Program-made: the position numbers and the translations under genes
DNA from: Haloarcula sp. CBA1127
GTDB lineage: Archaea > Halobacteriota > Halobacteria > Halobacteriales > Haloarculaceae
Direction of reading: 5' to 3'
NCBI RefSeq assembly: GCF_001485575.1
Contig: NZ_BCNB01000006.1
Location: forward strand, 620,001 to 684,000
DNA: 64,000 nt
Notes under the pieces: generated by a model
The model's database searches: none
The model's input: only the letters and a program-made list of their open reading frames with translations
What the model was told of the DNA's origin: nothing
Shown: positions 795 to 35,427 of the stretch, piece by piece
How positions within the stretch are numbered: the first letter of the stretch is position 1
How the letters are laid out: each line of letters opens with the position of its first letter

Positions 795-1691
795 ATGGAT
801 ATACTCGACGTCGACGACCTCACGACCGACGAACTGACGACCGTCCTCGACCGCGCCGCGGCCATCAAGGCCGACCACGGCGAGGGGAGTACGAGCGACC
901 TGCTCGACCAGCAGACGCTCGGCATGATATTCGAGAAGCCGTCGACGCGGACCCGAGTGTCCTTCGAGACGGGGATGACGCAACTGGGCGGCCACGCCGT
1001 CTTTCTCGGCCCCGACGACATCCATCTGGGCCATGGCGAACCGGTGAAAGACACCGCCCGTGCGCTCGGGCGCTACGTCGATTTCATCATGGCCCGCGTG
1101 TTCGACCATGCGGACGCGGAGGGACTGGCCGAGTACGCCGAAGTTCCGGTCATCAACGGCTTGACCGACGACGCCCACCCTTGCCAGACGCTCGCCGACC
1201 TGCTGACCATCCGAGAGCGGTTCGGCGACTTCGAGGACGTTTCCGTGGCGTGGGTCGGCGACGGTAACAACGTCTGCCAGTCCTTCGTCATCGGCGCGGC
1301 GATGGTCGGCCTCGACCTCACTGTCGCCACGCCCGATGGCTACGGCATCTCTGATGATGTGGCCGACCGTGCCGCCGGCTTCGGTAACGCGCCTGAGACG
1401 ACCCATGACCCAGAGGCCGCCGTGGCTGGCGCGGACGTGGTGTACTCCGATGTGTGGGTCAGCATGGGACAGGAGGACCAGCGCGGCCAGAAACTCGAAG
1501 ACTTCGAGGGGTTCCAGATCACGACGGACCTGCTCGGGGACCGGCCGTTCATGCACTGCCTGCCCGCCCACCGCGGCGAGGAGGTCACCGACGACGCCAT
1601 CGAGTCGGACAACGCTGTCGTCTGGGACCAGGCGGAGAACCGCCTACACGCTCAGAAGGGGCTGCTCGCGTGGTTAGCTGAGCAGGCGTAG
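795..1691 (+). CDS. argF: ornithine carbamoyltransferase
   Basis: Converts ornithine plus carbamoyl phosphate to citrulline in arginine synthesis, in the cytoplasm. The 298-residue product is near the usual family length. The carbamoyl-phosphate loop STRTR is at about residue 50, HPCQTLADL at about 130, and the ornithine-binding HCLPAHRGEE near 255. It starts 1 nt after the argE stop, indicating an operon. The last ~65 nt of the gene plus the downstream terminator-like stretch are repeated 164 bp further on, so the gene's end has been involved in a tandem duplication. The gene itself is intact. Confidence 0.96.
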   Translation: MDILDVDDLTTDELTTVLDRAAAIKADHGEGSTSDLLDQQTLGMIFEKPSTRTRVSFETGMTQLGGHAVFLGPDDIHLGHGEPVKDTARALGRYVDFIMARVFDHADAEGLAEYAEVPVINGLTDDAHPCQTLADLLTIRERFGDFEDVSVAWVGDGNNVCQSFVIGAAMVGLDLTVATPDGYGISDDVADRAAGFGNAPETTHDPEAAVAGADVVYSDVWVSMGQEDQRGQKLEDFEGFQITTDLLGDRPFMHCLPAHRGEEVTDDAIESDNAVVWDQAENRLHAQKGLLAWLAEQA

Positions 1692-1747
1692 ATCGTCCCG
1701 AGCGAAGCGAGGGACGGCTTTTTCCCCACGTTTTTGCGCGAGTGGTC
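1625..1747 (+). repeat. tandem repeat unit 1: argF 3' end plus downstream flank
   Basis: These 123 bp cover the last codons of argF, its TAG stop, a short hairpin, the box GGCTTTTTCCCCACGTTTTT and a few bases more. They recur at 1789-1911 with an exact 164-bp offset and four mismatches counted by eye. This unit is the functional argF end because it is continuous with the gene. Confidence 0.9.
1694..1735 (+). terminator. putative argF terminator (hairpin with two T5 runs)
   Basis: CGTCCC at 1694-1699 can pair with GGGACG at 1711-1716, and runs of five T follow at 1719-1723 and 1731-1735. Archaeal termination mainly needs T-rich tracts, so this suits the end of the argE-argF transcript. The same arrangement is copied in repeat unit 2 at 1858-1899. 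Confidence 0.5.
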
Positions 1748-1788
1748 GTGAACGCAGTGAACGACCCGACGCGGAAAAAGTGGCTGCC

Positions 1789-1911
1789 GGACCAGGCGGA
1801 GAACCGCCGACACGCTCAGAAGGGGCTGCTCGTGTGGTTAGCTGAGCAGGCGTAGATCGTCCCGAGCGGAGCGAGGGACGGCTTTTTCCCCACGTTTTTG
1901 CGCGAATGGTC
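1789..1911 (+). repeat. tandem repeat unit 2: orphan copy of the argF 3' end
   Basis: Near-identical copy of 1625-1747, including the argF terminal codons and stop, but joined on its left to a non-argF spacer (1748-1788). The spacer ends in ACCCGACG-CG-GAAAAAG-TGGCTGCCG, a box that recurs before the duplicated ileS end at 34220-34246. No start codon or upstream coding part accompanies this copy, so it is a dead gene fragment. Confidence 0.9.
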
Positions 1912-2140
1912 CCGTAGCGAGACTGAGGTGTAACTCTTCGTGCTAGCTTTTCTGCTAGGTCCCGCAGCGAACGATGCGTGCTAGGAAACCTGATAAAAAG
2001 CGGCTGCCGCGGCAGGCGAATATCAGGGTGCACGAGGAAAAGCTGCTACCCTGATTGGCGACCGTACCGTCCTGCTGTGACTGCTTTCCCATAACAAAAA
2101 TCCCGTTGTGGTTCTGCTTGGAACTGTTTCCCGCTGTCTG
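1912..2140. other. spacer between the argF duplication and the PRTase-HAD genes
   Basis: No coding frame is convincing. The stretch contains a partial further copy of the right-hand box (AAAAAGCGGCTGCCG, 1995-2009), so it looks like the end of a second tandem unit that has degenerated. Base composition falls from here into the PRTase-HAD genes. Confidence 0.5.
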
Positions 2141-30591: not shown

Positions 30592-30783
30592 ATGCCCTCC
30601 TACGAGTACCGCACTATCGAGGTCGACAGTGATGTCATGATCGCCGGACTTGGCGGCGAGGTCACGCCGCCGGTCGAGCAACTGAACGAACTCGGAGCCG
30701 AGGGGTGGCATGTCGCCGCTCCGCTCACGGACAAGACCGGCGAGACGGTCAGCTTGCTCCTCCAGCGTGAGCGCGAGCGCTGA
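30592..30783 (+). CDS. DUF4177 domain protein
   Basis: 63 residues from ATG 30592 (YEYRTIEVDSD...LNELGAEGWHVAAPL), the characteristic DUF4177 layout with a conserved E-GW motif and a final strand (VSLLLQRER). No biochemical role is established. It lies 52 bp upstream of ileS on the same strand and may be read through into it. Confidence 0.82.
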   Translation: MPSYEYRTIEVDSDVMIAGLGGEVTPPVEQLNELGAEGWHVAAPLTDKTGETVSLLLQRERER

Positions 30784-30835
30784 ACGGCACACATACAACC
30801 GATTGTCCTTTATTGGAGGCGGCGAATGTGCCGGT

Positions 30836-33800
30836 ATGGAACGTTTCGCCGCTGTCGATGACCAGTACGACCCCGACGCCGTCGAGGACGGCGTCTTCGA
30901 GTACTGGGACGATGTCGACGCCTACGAGCAGACGAAGGCCCACCGGGCCGACGGCGAGGACTACTTCTTCGTTGACGGGCCGCCCTACACCTCCGGCGCG
31001 GCCCACATGGGGACGACGTGGAACAAGACCCTGAAGGACTGTTACATCCGCTACCTGCGGATGCAGGGCTACAACGTCACCGACCGGCCGGGCTATGACA
31101 TGCACGGCCTCCCCATCGAGACGAAAGTCGAGGAGCGCCTCGACTTCGAGAACAAGAAAGACATCGAGCAGTTCGGTGAGGAGAACTTCATCGAGGAGTG
31201 CAAAGACTTCGCCGAGGAGCAACTCGAAGGCCTCCAGACGGACTTTCAGGACTTCGGCGTCTGGATGGACTGGGATGACCCATACAAGACGGTCAACCCG
31301 GAGTATATGGAGGCCGCCTGGTGGGGCTTCCAGCAGGCCCACGAGCGCGACCTCGTCGAACAGGGCCAGCGCTCCATCAACCAGTGCCCGCGCTGTGAGA
31401 CCGGCATTGCCAACAACGAGGTTGAGTACCACGATGTCGGCAAGCCGTCGATTTACGTGAAATTCCCCCTGGCAGAACAGGAGGGTAGTCTGGTCATCTG
31501 GACGACGACCCCGTGGACTATCGTCGCCAACACCTTCGTCGCCGCCGACGGCGACCTCGAATACGTGGGCGTCGACGCCGTGAAAGACAGCGCGGACTCG
31601 TCCGCGAAGCGGAGCGGCGAAGCCGCGGAGCGCGACACCGAACGCCTCTATCTCGCCGAGGCCTGCGTCGAGGACGTGCTGAAGGCCGGCCGGTACGACG
31701 ACTACGAGGTCGTCGAGACGCTGTCCGGCGAGGAGATGGTCGGCTGGGAGTACGACCACCCGCTGGCCGAGGAAGTGCCAGACCACGCCCAGGGCGAGGG
31801 CTCCGGGCAGGTGTACACCGCCGACTACGTCGAGGCCGACCGAACTGGGCTCGTCCACTCCGCGCCCGGCCACGGTGAGGAGGACTTCGAGCGCGGACAG
31901 GAACTTGATCTCGAAATCTTCTGTCCGGTCGGGAGCGACGGCGTTTACACCGACGCCGCGGGCAAGTACGCCGGCACCTTCGTCCGTGACGCCAACGACG
32001 AGGTTATCGACGACCTCGACGACAACGGCGTCCTGCTCTCCAGTGAATCTGGCCACACCGTCCGCGAGGGGCAGTGCTGGCGCTGTGACACCGACATCGT
32101 TCGCATCGTCACGGACCAGTGGTTCATCACGGTCACCGACATCAAGGACGAACTGCTGGCGAACATCGAGGACAGCGAGTGGTATCCGCAGTGGGCGCGG
32201 GACAACCGCTTCCGTGACTTCGTCGAGGACGCGCCGGACTGGAACGTCTCGCGGCAGCGCTACTGGGGCATCCCCATCCCGATTTGGCTTCCTGAAGACT
32301 GGAGCGGTGACATGGACGACGCCATCGTCGTCGGCGACCGCGAGGAACTCGCCGAGCGAGTCGACCAAGACATCGACCCAGAGAGCGTCGACCTACACAA
32401 AGGCACGGTCGACGACCTCACCATCACTGAGGACGGCACGACCTACAGCCGCGTCGGCGACGTGTTCGACGTGTGGCTCGACTCCTCCGTCGCGACATGG
32501 GGGACCGTCAACTACCCCGAGCAGACCGAGGACTTCGATGACCTGTGGCCCGCCGACCTCATCATGGAGGCCCACGACCAGACCCGCGGCTGGTTCTGGT
32601 CTCAGCTGGGTATGAGCACCGCCGCGACCGGCGAAATCCCGTACAAGCAGGTGCTGATGCACGGCTACGCCAATATGCCCGATGGCCGCGGGATGTCCAA
32701 GTCCAAGGGCGTCCTCATCGACCCCCACGAGGTCATCGAGAAGCACGGCCGCGACCCGATGCGGCTGTTCCTGTTGTCGGTGACCGCGCAGGGCGAGGAC
32801 ATGAACTTCTCGTGGGAGGAGACCGCCGAGATGCAGCGCCGGCTGAACATCCTCTGGAACGTCGCCCGGTTCCCGCTGCCGTATATGCGCGCCGACGACT
32901 TCGACCCCGAGGAAACAACCGTCGAGGACCTCCGCGACGACCTCGAACTCGTCGACGAGTGGGTGCTCTCCCGACTCCAGAGCGTGACCGAGGCGATGAC
33001 CGACTCGATGGAGGACTTCGAGAACGACAAGGCGGTCGACGAACTGCTTGAGTTCGTCGTCGAGGACGTCTCCCGGTTCTACATTCAGGTCGTCCGCGAG
33101 CGGATGTGGGAGGAAGAGGATAGCGCCTCGAAGCAGGCGGCATACGCCACGCTCTACCGCGTGCTCGAATCCGTGGCCGCGCTGTTTGCTCCATTCACGC
33201 CGTTCGTCGCGGAGCAGGTGTACGGCGCGCTCACCGGCGACGCCGGCCACCCGACGGTCCACATGTGTGACTGGCCCGAGGTCGACGCCGACCTGCACGA
33301 CCCGGCGCTCGAACGCGAAATCGAAGTCGTCCGCGAAGTCGAGGAAGCGGGCTCGAACGCCCGCCAGCAGGCCGAACGCAAGCTCCGCTGGCCCGTCACC
33401 CGCGTCGTCGTCGACGTGGACAGCGACGACGTGGCCGACGCCGTTCGCGCTCAGGAGGCTATCATCGCCGACCGGCTTAACGCCCGCGCCGTCGAGGTTG
33501 TTGGCGCTGACGACGAGTGGGGAGAACTCCAGTACTCCGCCGAGGCCGACATGAGCGAACTCGGCCCGGCCTTCGGTGACGACGCCGGAAGGGTAATGAA
33601 CGCGCTCAATGAGGCGCGCGTCACCGAGCAGTCGCTCGATACCCTCCAAGGCACAGTGAGCGACGCGCTCGGCGAGAACGTTGACCTCACCGAGGAGATG
33701 GTCGAGTTCCGCCGCGAGACGCCCGAGGGCGTTACCGGAACGGAGTTCACGGCACTCGACGGCGGCGGCGTCGTCTACGTCGACACCACGCTCACTGAGG

Positions 33801-34081
33801 ACATCGAGAGCGAGGGGTACGCCCGCGAGGTCATCCGCCGGGTTCAGGAGATGCGCAAGGACCTCGAACTAGACATCGAGGCCCGCATTGTCGTAGACCT
33901 CGACATAGATGATGAGGGGGTCTCCGAACTAGTGCGACGACATGAAGACCTCATCAAAGAGGAGGTGCGTGCTGACGAGTTAGATGGCGTCGAAGATGGC
34001 CATCGCAAAACCTGGGAGGTTGAGGGTGTAGAGATGGATATTGCGATTGCACCGGTGGCTGCTGCCGAAGCGTCTGATTAG
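30836..34081 (+). CDS. ileS: isoleucyl-tRNA synthetase (archaeal/eukaryal type), 3' end mosaic
   Basis: 1081 residues from ATG 30836. The HIGH motif is HMGT (after PPYTSGAA), and the KMSKS motif is GMSKSKG. The editing domain lies between them and the long anticodon-binding region follows. The last ~75 residues (from about 33850) show a visible drop in GC3 compared with the rest. The segment 33851-34053 is repeated at 34249-34451, so the 3' end has probably been replaced by recombination. The duplicated product is 82 percent identical over 68 residues (counted by eye). The gene remains in frame to TAG. Confidence 0.96.
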   Translation: MERFAAVDDQYDPDAVEDGVFEYWDDVDAYEQTKAHRADGEDYFFVDGPPYTSGAAHMGTTWNKTLKDCYIRYLRMQGYNVTDRPGYDMHGLPIETKVEERLDFENKKDIEQFGEENFIEECKDFAEEQLEGLQTDFQDFGVWMDWDDPYKTVNPEYMEAAWWGFQQAHERDLVEQGQRSINQCPRCETGIANNEVEYHDVGKPSIYVKFPLAEQEGSLVIWTTTPWTIVANTFVAADGDLEYVGVDAVKDSADSSAKRSGEAAERDTERLYLAEACVEDVLKAGRYDDYEVVETLSGEEMVGWEYDHPLAEEVPDHAQGEGSGQVYTADYVEADRTGLVHSAPGHGEEDFERGQELDLEIFCPVGSDGVYTDAAGKYAGTFVRDANDEVIDDLDDNGVLLSSESGHTVREGQCWRCDTDIVRIVTDQWFITVTDIKDELLANIEDSEWYPQWARDNRFRDFVEDAPDWNVSRQRYWGIPIPIWLPEDWSGDMDDAIVVGDREELAERVDQDIDPESVDLHKGTVDDLTITEDGTTYSRVGDVFDVWLDSSVATWGTVNYPEQTEDFDDLWPADLIMEAHDQTRGWFWSQLGMSTAATGEIPYKQVLMHGYANMPDGRGMSKSKGVLIDPHEVIEKHGRDPMRLFLLSVTAQGEDMNFSWEETAEMQRRLNILWNVARFPLPYMRADDFDPEETTVEDLRDDLELVDEWVLSRLQSVTEAMTDSMEDFENDKAVDELLEFVVEDVSRFYIQVVRERMWEEEDSASKQAAYATLYRVLESVAALFAPFTPFVAEQVYGALTGDAGHPTVHMCDWPEVDADLHDPALEREIEVVREVEEAGSNARQQAERKLRWPVTRVVVDVDSDDVADAVRAQEAIIADRLNARAVEVVGADDEWGELQYSAEADMSELGPAFGDDAGRVMNALNEARVTEQSLDTLQGTVSDALGENVDLTEEMVEFRRETPEGVTGTEFTALDGGGVVYVDTTLTEDIESEGYAREVIRRVQEMRKDLELDIEARIVVDLDIDDEGVSELVRRHEDLIKEEVRADELDGVEDGHRKTWEVEGVEMDIAIAPVAAAEASD

Positions 34082-34139
34082 GACAGCACGCGACCAACGG
34101 GAGCGTGCTGCTTTTTCGCCCACGTTTTTCGAGTCGACC

Positions 34140-34195
34140 GGGACCGAAGGTCCCGCTGACCATGCGAACGGGCGCTTTGCGCCCGTGAGCAGAGA
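34140..34195 (+). repeat. two-hairpin repeat module shared with the element before leuS
   Basis: GGGACCGAAGGTCCC and ACGGGCG...CGCCCGT hairpins, with the string ACCATGCGAACGGGCG between them and GTGAGCAGAGA after. The same order occurs at 20204-20259, inside the third arm of the 304-bp element. Only the hairpin loops and a few linker bases differ. Confidence 0.85.
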
Positions 34196-34227
34196 GTGGT
34201 TCGCGAGTATCGCGAGCGGACCCGACG

Positions 34228-34500
34228 ATGAAAAAGGTGGCAGCCGAGATGCGCAAGGACCTCGAACTGGACATCGAGGCGCGCATTGTCGTGGATCTGG
34301 CAATCGATGACAAGCGCGTGGATTCGCTTGTCAGAGAGCACGAAGCACTGATTAAAGAGGAGGTCCGGGCTGATGAACTCAGCGGCGTTGAGGACGGCCA
34401 CCGCAAGACGTGGGACGTCGAAGGAACTGATATGGAGATTGCGATTGCGCCGTGCGAGGCCGACCAGCGGGAGGCCTCGGAACAAGCGGGCGGCGACTAA
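34228..34500 (+). pseudogene. duplicated, diverged ileS 3' fragment
   Basis: An open frame of 90 codons from ATG 34228 whose residues from about 8 onward align with the IleRS C-terminus (RKDLELDIEARIVVDL, KEEVRADEL, VEDGHRKTW). At the DNA level 34249-34451 matches 33851-34053 with a fixed 398-bp offset. No catalytic part is present, so it is an orphan gene end. The left junction carries the box ACCCGACG-AT-GAAAAAG-GTGGCAGCCG, shared with the argF duplication. The intact frame means it could still be translated. Confidence 0.85.
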
Positions 34501-34572
34501 AAGGAACCGCGAGCCGTGGCGGCTGCCGAAGCGTCGGAGTCCCTCCCTCGCTAGAGGGGAAGAAAGTAGCAA

Positions 34573-35427
34573 CTACAACTGGTCTGCGACGACGGGTGCG
34601 GCGCTGACCTCGCTGACGGCGCGTTCGAGTGTGTCCGTCCCGTAGACGGCTTCGACGCCGGCGCTGTTGAGCTTCGTCAGGGCATTGCTAGCGAGCATCG
34701 GGTGGACGCAACTGACGAACACACGCTGGGCATCGCGGTCACCGAGGACGCTGACGGATTTGCTCATTGTCGACCCAGTGGCGATGATGTCATCGACAAG
34801 GACCACGTCCCGGCCCTCGACCGGCGCGTCGCTGGGGCTGATCTCGATGTCGCCGGTGTCGTAGTCTCGGTCCTTCTCGAAGAAGTCCGTCTCACCCTCG
34901 CCGTATGCATCCCGGACCGTCGTTGCAAGGGCGATTGCGCCTTCGTCGGGCGAGAGAAAGAGCGGGTCCCGCAGGTCCGCAGGCAGTGGGTCGGAGAGAA
35001 CACTCGCGGCGTCGACGTTGGTAGCTGGCACGTCGAAGAAGTCACAGACGGCCGGCTCGTGGGGGTTCACCGTCAGCACGCGGTCGGTTCCCGTCGAGAT
35101 GGCGCGGGCCATCGCCCGCGAGGACACCGGCTCACCGGGCTTGAACGCCTCGTCCTGGCGGGCGTAACCCATGTACGGAATGACGGTGATGACCTCGCTC
35201 GCGCCGCTTTCGCGGGCCGCGTCCTGCAACTGGAGCAATTGTAGGTGCGCGTCGCTGTCGACGGTCGACGCGACAACGACCGCCCGCTCGTCGGCGACCG
35301 CGTCTGGGACCCGGACGACGTGCTCACCGTCGGGGAACCGTTCGTACTCGACCCGTCCCAGCCGCTCGCCAGTCGCCTCGGCGAGGGTCGCCGCGAACGC
35401 CTGCGTGTCCGCCCCGGGGATAATCAT
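34573..35427 (-). CDS. prs: ribose-phosphate pyrophosphokinase
   Basis: Makes PRPP from ribose 5-phosphate and ATP for purine, pyrimidine, His and Trp synthesis. 284 residues, the short archaeal form. The PRPP-binding loop is VVLVDDIIATGSTMSKS near 205-220. Other conserved blocks are FPDGEHVVRVPD near 31 and PYMGYARQDEAFKPGEP near 85. Its 3' end faces the duplicated ileS fragment. Single gene with its own AT-rich upstream region (35428-35663). Confidence 0.94.
   Translation of the reverse strand: MIIPGADTQAFAATLAEATGERLGRVEYERFPDGEHVVRVPDAVADERAVVVASTVDSDAHLQLLQLQDAARESGASEVITVIPYMGYARQDEAFKPGEPVSSRAMARAISTGTDRVLTVNPHEPAVCDFFDVPATNVDAASVLSDPLPADLRDPLFLSPDEGAIALATTVRDAYGEGETDFFEKDRDYDTGDIEISPSDAPVEGRDVVLVDDIIATGSTMSKSVSVLGDRDAQRVFVSCVHPMLASNALTKLNSAGVEAVYGTDTLERAVSEVSAAPVVADQL

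Follow-up and report, generated by a model that had tools for sequence, protein, structure and literature searches.

A terminator-like palindromic cassette lies between an imported and a displaced 3′ end of ileS in a Haloarcula-type genome

Introduction

When mobile DNA integrates into the 3′ end of a gene, as prophages do at icd and at many tRNA genes, the incoming DNA supplies a substitute end and the gene remains functional (passages of PMC10111431). The ileS unit described here is alike in this respect and, as in gene-3′-end integration, the resident end stays at the far side. The units to which it belongs contain a palindromic, terminator-like cassette that we name E. They differ from gene-3′-end integration in that they span a few hundred bases, occur at dozens of target genes and have the terminator-like palindrome as their only constant part. 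Neither an integrase or other recombinase nor cargo is present in these units, which therefore fall outside gene-3′-end integration as it is defined.

E also resembles two other classes of sequence. In an H. volcanii reporter, a T5C tract ended 95% of transcripts, and E likewise has such tracts, of which two lie on the sense strand and a third on the opposite one (passages of PMC7237163). Unlike these terminators, E contains a long conserved hairpin that recurs at unrelated loci and is linked to duplicated gene ends; a cassette of this kind is not mentioned in those passages. REP and MITE elements are, like E, short, palindromic, dispersed and extragenic, but the repeats that accompany E are gene tails of variable length, and not target duplications that are short and uniform in size. 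The exchange that the model proposed below needs is supplied by gene conversion and recombination in polyploid haloarchaea (parts of PMC8223754 and PMC10085750). As far as these parts go, the studies followed introduced or heterozygous alleles, not natural tail-terminator units. No literature that joins duplicated gene ends to a haloarchaeal hairpin was found among open papers, most of them represented by title and abstract.

Results

The 3′ end of ileS is present twice

The window is a stretch of 64,000 nt from contig C6 of a Haloarcula-type genome (G000). It contains an ileS ORF whose true start probably lies downstream of its first listed base (Table 1). A direct repeat with a constant offset of 398 nt joins 33848-34054 to 34246-34452, and 152 of the 207 bases are the same. 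The duplication had been recognized in the initial annotation, as had the identity of 56 of 68 residues between the two ends, a count that we also obtained. Identity begins exactly at GAGATGCGCAAG (33848 and 34246, respectively), and the mismatches number 9, 7 and 39 at codon positions 1, 2 and 3. The frame of the orphan end matches ileS at 1.0e-31. The two tails are separated by 164 nt that contain no gene. An assembly error was ruled out as the source of the repeat, since the arrangement recurs in a named Haloarcula sebkhae record (L004) and in other genomes.

Table 1. Positions of the features of the ileS and argF loci within the window
Feature	Position	Strand	Basis
argF end and hairpin, first copy	1625..1717	+	argF ORF 795-1691; family via the G005 homologue
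Cassette E after argF	1718..1783	+	R1 53.0 bits
argF end and hairpin, second copy	1789..1882	+	base comparison
Second, interrupted E	1882..2003	+	R1 16.9 bits, E-value 0.58 (weak); also by eye
ileS ORF	30710..34081	+	ORF list; TIGR00392 831.6 bits, residues 50-910
In-gene foreign ileS 3′ end (B1)	33848..34081	+	tail tree, AU test, sliding identity, informative sites
First hairpin, directly after the ileS stop codon	34082..34110	+	sequence; relatives with the same layout
Palindromic terminator-like cassette E	34111..34240	+	model R1 match 34175-34240, 32.4 bits; comparison with G024
Spacer of 5 nt between E and the displaced tail	34241..34245	+	junction table
Displaced resident ileS 3′ end (B′)	34246..34452	+	trees, sliding identity; mechanical ORF 34228-34500
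Insert in the displaced tail (RASGD repeat)	34453..34515	+	ileS end comparison with relatives
Rest of the resident ileS end, after the RASGD insert	34516..34539	+	compared with other ileS ends
Ribose-phosphate diphosphokinase, convergent	34573..35427	-	NF002095 298.0 bits

At this locus, the T5C tracts of E occupy 34112-34117 and 34125-34130 on the + strand, and the − strand carries the tract CCACCTTTTTC. A 60-nt double hairpin (...GCTGACCATGCGAACGGGC...GCCCGTGAGCAGAG) lies inside E at 34134-34193 in G000 and is absent in G024; similar inserts occur downstream of the ileS stop codon in L052 and in L239. In G023 (L096), tandem copies of another hairpin repeat (CACGAGCCCGACCAGCGGGAGGGCTCGAACC...) directly follow the ileS stop codon.

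The in-gene end of ileS is foreign and the orphan end is resident

We compared the phylogeny of the ileS body with that of its ends, using aligned sequences (body tree: 1500 columns, 30 genomes of the genus; tail tree: 210 nt, 33 rows). The body tree placed G000 beside G024, G003 and G029 (SH-aLRT 96), in a group nested in an 11-genome clade (99) that excluded G004 and G030. In the tail tree, the in-gene end of G000 grouped with those of G024, G004 and G030 (100/100); its orphan end fell beside G003 and G029 (95/93). A single clade for both G000 ends was rejected (p-AU 0.0005, lnL difference 79.65). The tree test of a foreign in-gene tail covers ileS alone.

The sliding identities are consistent with the trees. 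Identity to G029 was 0.97 in the block from 33788 and 0.65 in the block from 33878; identity to G024 reached 1.00 in the block from 33818 and stayed at 0.98-1.00 in later blocks. The fall in identity to the resident relatives occurs within 33848-33895, and the left breakpoint of B1 lies between 33848 and ~33895. From its nucleotide 42 onward, the orphan is of the resident type at nearly all informative sites; site 35, near its left edge, is donor-type. Compared position by position without gaps, G000 and G024 are 99% identical in their in-gene tails, ~93.5% in their aligned bodies and 85.7% in their orphans, the body value for G010 being unusable under this procedure.

The separate lineages in the trees, together with the shifts in identity, indicate that ileS acquired a foreign end in exchange for its resident one, which was displaced downstream. 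This is what the initial annotation had proposed, and the separate body and tail trees that it called for placed the in-gene end with another lineage and the orphan with the close relatives of the body. Another lineage is thus the source of the last 234 nt of G000 ileS and of the hairpin and E that follow, and the resident tail persists just downstream of E. The transfer at ileS is well supported; according to the trees and sliding identities, the incoming 3′ end has kept ileS intact. The two ileS tails of G010, by comparison, are sisters in the tail tree.

Base composition was less informative. The initial annotation had taken a drop in GC3 at the live end as a sign of foreign origin. The drop itself stands, at 0.54 in the block from 33860 against ~0.77-0.94 along ileS (0.70 in the first, partly upstream block) and 0.68 in the orphan. 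Most tails of the 30 related ileS genes read are also lower in GC3 than their bodies (tails 0.59-0.93, bodies 0.86-0.95), so part of the step is regional; a tail GC3 as extreme as that of G000 is common only to G024 (0.60) and G004 (0.63). We therefore no longer count the GC step as proof of foreign origin, and by itself it is weak evidence.

The RASGD insert of the G000 orphan is also present in the ileS remnant of G001 and is absent from the in-gene tails of both genomes. The intact ileS genes of G031, G014, G029 and G016 contain it at the corresponding position, as do those of L021, L032 and L050. This insert of ~63 nt ends the genes in ...EASEQASGD and a stop codon, with the old end left behind it. 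Its occurrence at one ileS position in several genera indicates that it is either old or strongly site-preferring. It is probably another small haloarchaeal repeat family.

E is a conserved, multi-copy element of Halobacteria

To define E, we derived the pattern TTTTTCG-CCCACGTTTTTC-GAGGAG-[inner hairpin]-CGACGA-GAAAAAGGTGG and a covariance model, R1, built from 22 copies. Of 32 genomes from the genus, R1 detects E in 31, with at least 10-45 copies in each of these; copy counts are minima, 150 or 32 candidates having been scored per genome. A class-wide search detected E in at least 129 of 155 Halobacteria genomes, representing 54 of 59 genera. In a phylum sample of 196 genomes, 26 carried E; all 26 belong to the order of the window, and no genome of the sample outside that order had it. 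No Rfam family matched 33500-34800 up to an E-value of 1.

The inner stem shows compensatory changes: in the alignment, which was fitted to the model, 8 of 12 predicted pairs are changed on both sides. Overall, E is a conserved, palindromic, multi-copy Halobacteria element that is often found between convergent genes; where it comes after a gene in sense orientation, a repeat of that gene's 3′ end frequently follows. Its conserved arms contain T5C tracts in both directions, and these tracts lie downstream of stop codons on both strands. Judged from its sequence, E is a putative bidirectional transcription terminator.

Within G000, the E copies at C6:137343 and 573185 (L119 and L115) have the same inner hairpin and lie between unrelated convergent gene pairs. 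The copy at 2326713 scores as the 137343 copy does and perhaps has the same inner hairpin too. A hairpin shared by unrelated loci looks as if E had been copied within one genome.

E is linked to duplicated gene ends

We examined the surroundings of E at 114 places, of which 20 are in G000, 25 in G005 (out of 38 copies) and 69 in other genomes. These were obtained from 151 aligned matches, of which 132 remained after removal of reverse-strand echoes and 114 once those whose flanks were short or whose context was identical had been dropped. Outside G000 and G005, the 69 places are best-scoring matches, and thus biased to high-scoring E and not a random sample. At 41 of the 114 places (7 in G000, 10 in G005, 24 in other genomes), a copy of the 3′ end of the upstream gene begins within 15 nt after E. 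The other 73 have no duplicated tail. In 37 of them, the distance to the stop codon of a convergent gene is −2 to 8 nt; the remaining 36 have neither feature, and several of these abut other-strand tRNA 3′ ends or promoter-like sequences. In controls, 210 gene ends lacking E yielded a single similar flanking repeat and 674 mismatched pairs none, which rules out a chance repeat.

The 61 duplication records come from 36 genomes and represent at least 34 sequence clusters, including Spt5, TiaS, ornithine carbamoyltransferase, GyrA-type and methionine synthase ends as well as those of PheT, ProS, phosphotransacetylase and thiolase. Because the same arrangement occurs at many genes, the exchange of ends is not a peculiarity of ileS or of essential genes, and at ileS it is tied to the conserved terminator cassette between the two ends.

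The flanking repeats are ~21-273 nt long and are absent around E between convergent genes. The duplication ends within 3 nt of the stop codon in 13 of the 41 cases and reaches E in 9, as in arrays. The right edge of E is fixed, with GGTGG followed by a short spacer of 4-5 nt. The left edges of the duplications mostly start with G and have no evident common core; a fixed target motif was considered for them and dropped, the weak preference for G being all that was seen. For a given gene, the left edge is common to several genomes: 234 nt for ileS in G000, G024 and G010 (225 in G033), 96-101 nt for Spt5 in G004, G115 and G161, and 56 nt for TiaS in G011 and G151. This indicates that the units are inherited or passed on, not made anew each time.

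Empty and filled sites could be compared at a gene that we take, from reading its protein, to encode a methyltransferase (L156). In G014, G020 and G030, which lack E there, the order is tail-stop-C; in G000 and its kin it is tail-stop-hairpin-E-spacer-tail-stop-C, and the second tail leads into the same C. At Spt5, the E state varies between close relatives and there are at least two left edges. In both genes, the second tail is continuous with the resident downstream DNA. The comparison shows that the extra piece is [tail-stop-hairpin-E], placed before the resident tail, and that losses are clean.

Arrays were also found. In G005, three units lie 186 nt apart and are identical at 121 of 121 bases; Halovenus rubra has three tails. 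In Haloarculaceae H-GB1-1 (L024), an opposite-strand stop codon comes immediately after two successive tail-E units. The window itself contains another case, at argF, where the gene ends at 1625-1718 and 1789-1882 share 91 of 94 bases.

Differences between tails are mostly synonymous

The tail pairs differ by 140 synonymous and 67 nonsynonymous changes (pN/pS 0.157). In 28 diverged pairs, pN/pS was 0.154 (bootstrap 0.11-0.21), and a comparison over 46 loci gave 0.18. Most of 40 second tails have a frame open to the stop codon; an in-frame start lies upstream in 26 of the 40 and is missing in 14. The low pN/pS indicates that the differences mostly arose in working gene ends or that gene conversion, which is described in part of PMC8223754 as very efficient in H. 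volcanii, keeps the copies alike. Tails of the methyltransferase gene were 0.89 alike within one genome, a mean lowered by the misaligned second tail of G008 (0.37), and 0.77-0.82 alike between genomes. The methyltransferase tails and the ileS tails of G010 are as compatible with local duplication or homogenisation as with import. Both import, as at ileS of G000, and homogenisation within a genome seem to happen.

Pieces of ileS on plasmids

Further ileS 3′ pieces occur on two Haloferax plasmids and on contig C4 of G000 (L003). The piece on plasmid pBNX82-3 of Haloferax alexandrinus (L122, 3450-4340) retains the hairpin and E; pHME132 of H. mediterranei also carries ileS 3′ pieces (L123/L124). 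The DNA around the plasmid and C4 pieces resembles that downstream of ileS in Halomicrobium katesii (L020), and they therefore look like pieces moved from the chromosome, which are probably not the source of the unit. A plasmid or virus as the source of the tails was accordingly set aside, phage records and viral contigs being without a match.

Discussion

The structure of the units, their distribution, their polymorphism between genomes and the foreign origin of the ileS end are observations from which a mechanism can be proposed. The reading that we favour, with a probability of roughly 0.6, is that gene tail, stop codon, hairpin and E form protein-less units, one per gene, that are born in tandem at E, spread by homologous recombination and are removed by recombination between tails. 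E would terminate the transcripts of the gene and of its convergent neighbour. Where a gene ends in E, the segment composed of tail (B), stop codon, hairpin and E would be tandemly duplicated, the right breakpoint falling at the right edge of E; the two full tail-E units of L024, before an opposite-strand stop codon, may represent this birth state. The unit would then enter genomes that lack E at that gene by homologous recombination within the gene tail, carried by an ordinary linear fragment or, in Campbell fashion, by a small circle. The predicted product is gene, incoming B1, stop codon, hairpin and E, followed by resident B′, its stop codon and the resident downstream DNA. Because the incoming B1 completes the gene, the host gene would stay intact. 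Recombination between B1 and B′ would lead to clean removal, to arrays or to homogenised tails, and no enzyme of the unit's own would be required. Homologous recombination on its own does not account for the 4-5 nt spacer or for a right edge located at E.

A rival account is local tandem duplication only, in which the palindrome provokes slippage or template switching, one copy decays and there is no general import. That account is helped by the identical or near-identical arrays of G005 and Halovenus rubra, by the sister tails of G010 ileS and by the within-genome likeness of the methyltransferase tails. We nonetheless consider it unlikely: the two ileS ends of G000 belong to different lineages, and many copies stop exactly at the stop codon, with hairpin and E not repeated after the copy. 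In addition, a decaying copy would be expected to gain nonsynonymous changes, at odds with a pN/pS of 0.15 and mostly open frames. The mixed ancestry of the G000 ileS tails also counts against the idea that E is a transposable palindrome of the MITE or REP kind, whose insertion after a stop codon would generate a long target duplication. Such an element would account for the near-identical copies dispersed over unrelated loci of G000, for the empty sites and for the fixed GGTGG edge with its short spacer; with flanking repeats that vary so widely in length and are absent at convergent sites, we regard it as quite improbable.

The topology of the locus, with the gene intact through the incoming end and the resident end at the far side, is also what would be expected of an integrase-driven element directed at gene ends, present as a remnant or in non-autonomous form, its recombinase acting in trans or deleted. 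Identity blocks in such systems reach ~250 bp if attP has a gene-end replacement (passages of PMC10111431). Such an origin is nevertheless very doubtful in view of the short, gene-free interval between the tails of the window, the large number of gene clusters used and the left edges without an evident shared core. Moreover, a search of 32 genomes revealed no second ileS tail farther away except the plasmid-type pieces, and neither the tails nor E matched viral contigs or phage records. Lastly, the second tail could itself be functional, either by encoding a small protein or through antisense or decoy RNA transcribed from the convergent gene. The open frames, the upstream starts and, in the window, an ATG at 34228 would allow for a protein; the second tails that have no start, the clean losses in close relatives and the failure of the 90-aa frame to match NCBIfam make this extremely improbable. 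An antisense role is disfavoured by the concentration of differences at third codon positions.

A broader form of the favoured reading, spread of tail-E units by homology, is offered as a tentative extension that may well prove too strong. Halobacteria would carry mobile units without genes or recombinase, composed of a housekeeping 3′ end and a terminator palindrome, that leave as circles by recombination between the tails and enter the corresponding gene in other cells or species through homology. Such units would be harmless, gene-specific and self-perpetuating, and would swap the end of a host protein each time.

If spread by homology is correct, an archaeal class exchanges gene ends piecemeal between species in a form that is marked and countable, the terminator hairpin showing where. 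The loci would then be natural experiments on donor, breakpoint, rate of loss and the effect of a swapped tRNA synthetase, Spt5 or gyrase end, and they would illustrate how selfish or neutral DNA could spread by simple means, with no enzyme of its own. Some small ORFs annotated as 'hypothetical' would be displaced gene ends. The analysis also names a conserved, terminator-like haloarchaeal cassette that is not in Rfam.

Sequences adjoining E

At L208, L209, L211 and L215, a BRE/TATA-promoter-like sequence of the next gene (e.g. CGTAAGCGTTTAA) adjoins the right edge of E. Such promoter-like sequence abutting E suggests that the cassette may also insulate neighbouring transcription units. At L196, L213 and L217, E is followed by a short fragment on the other strand that resembles the 3′ end of tRNA-Arg. 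According to ARAGORN, a full tRNA-Arg is present at the L196 and L213 loci and none at L217. These fragments look like att remnants of elements that had integrated in tRNA genes.
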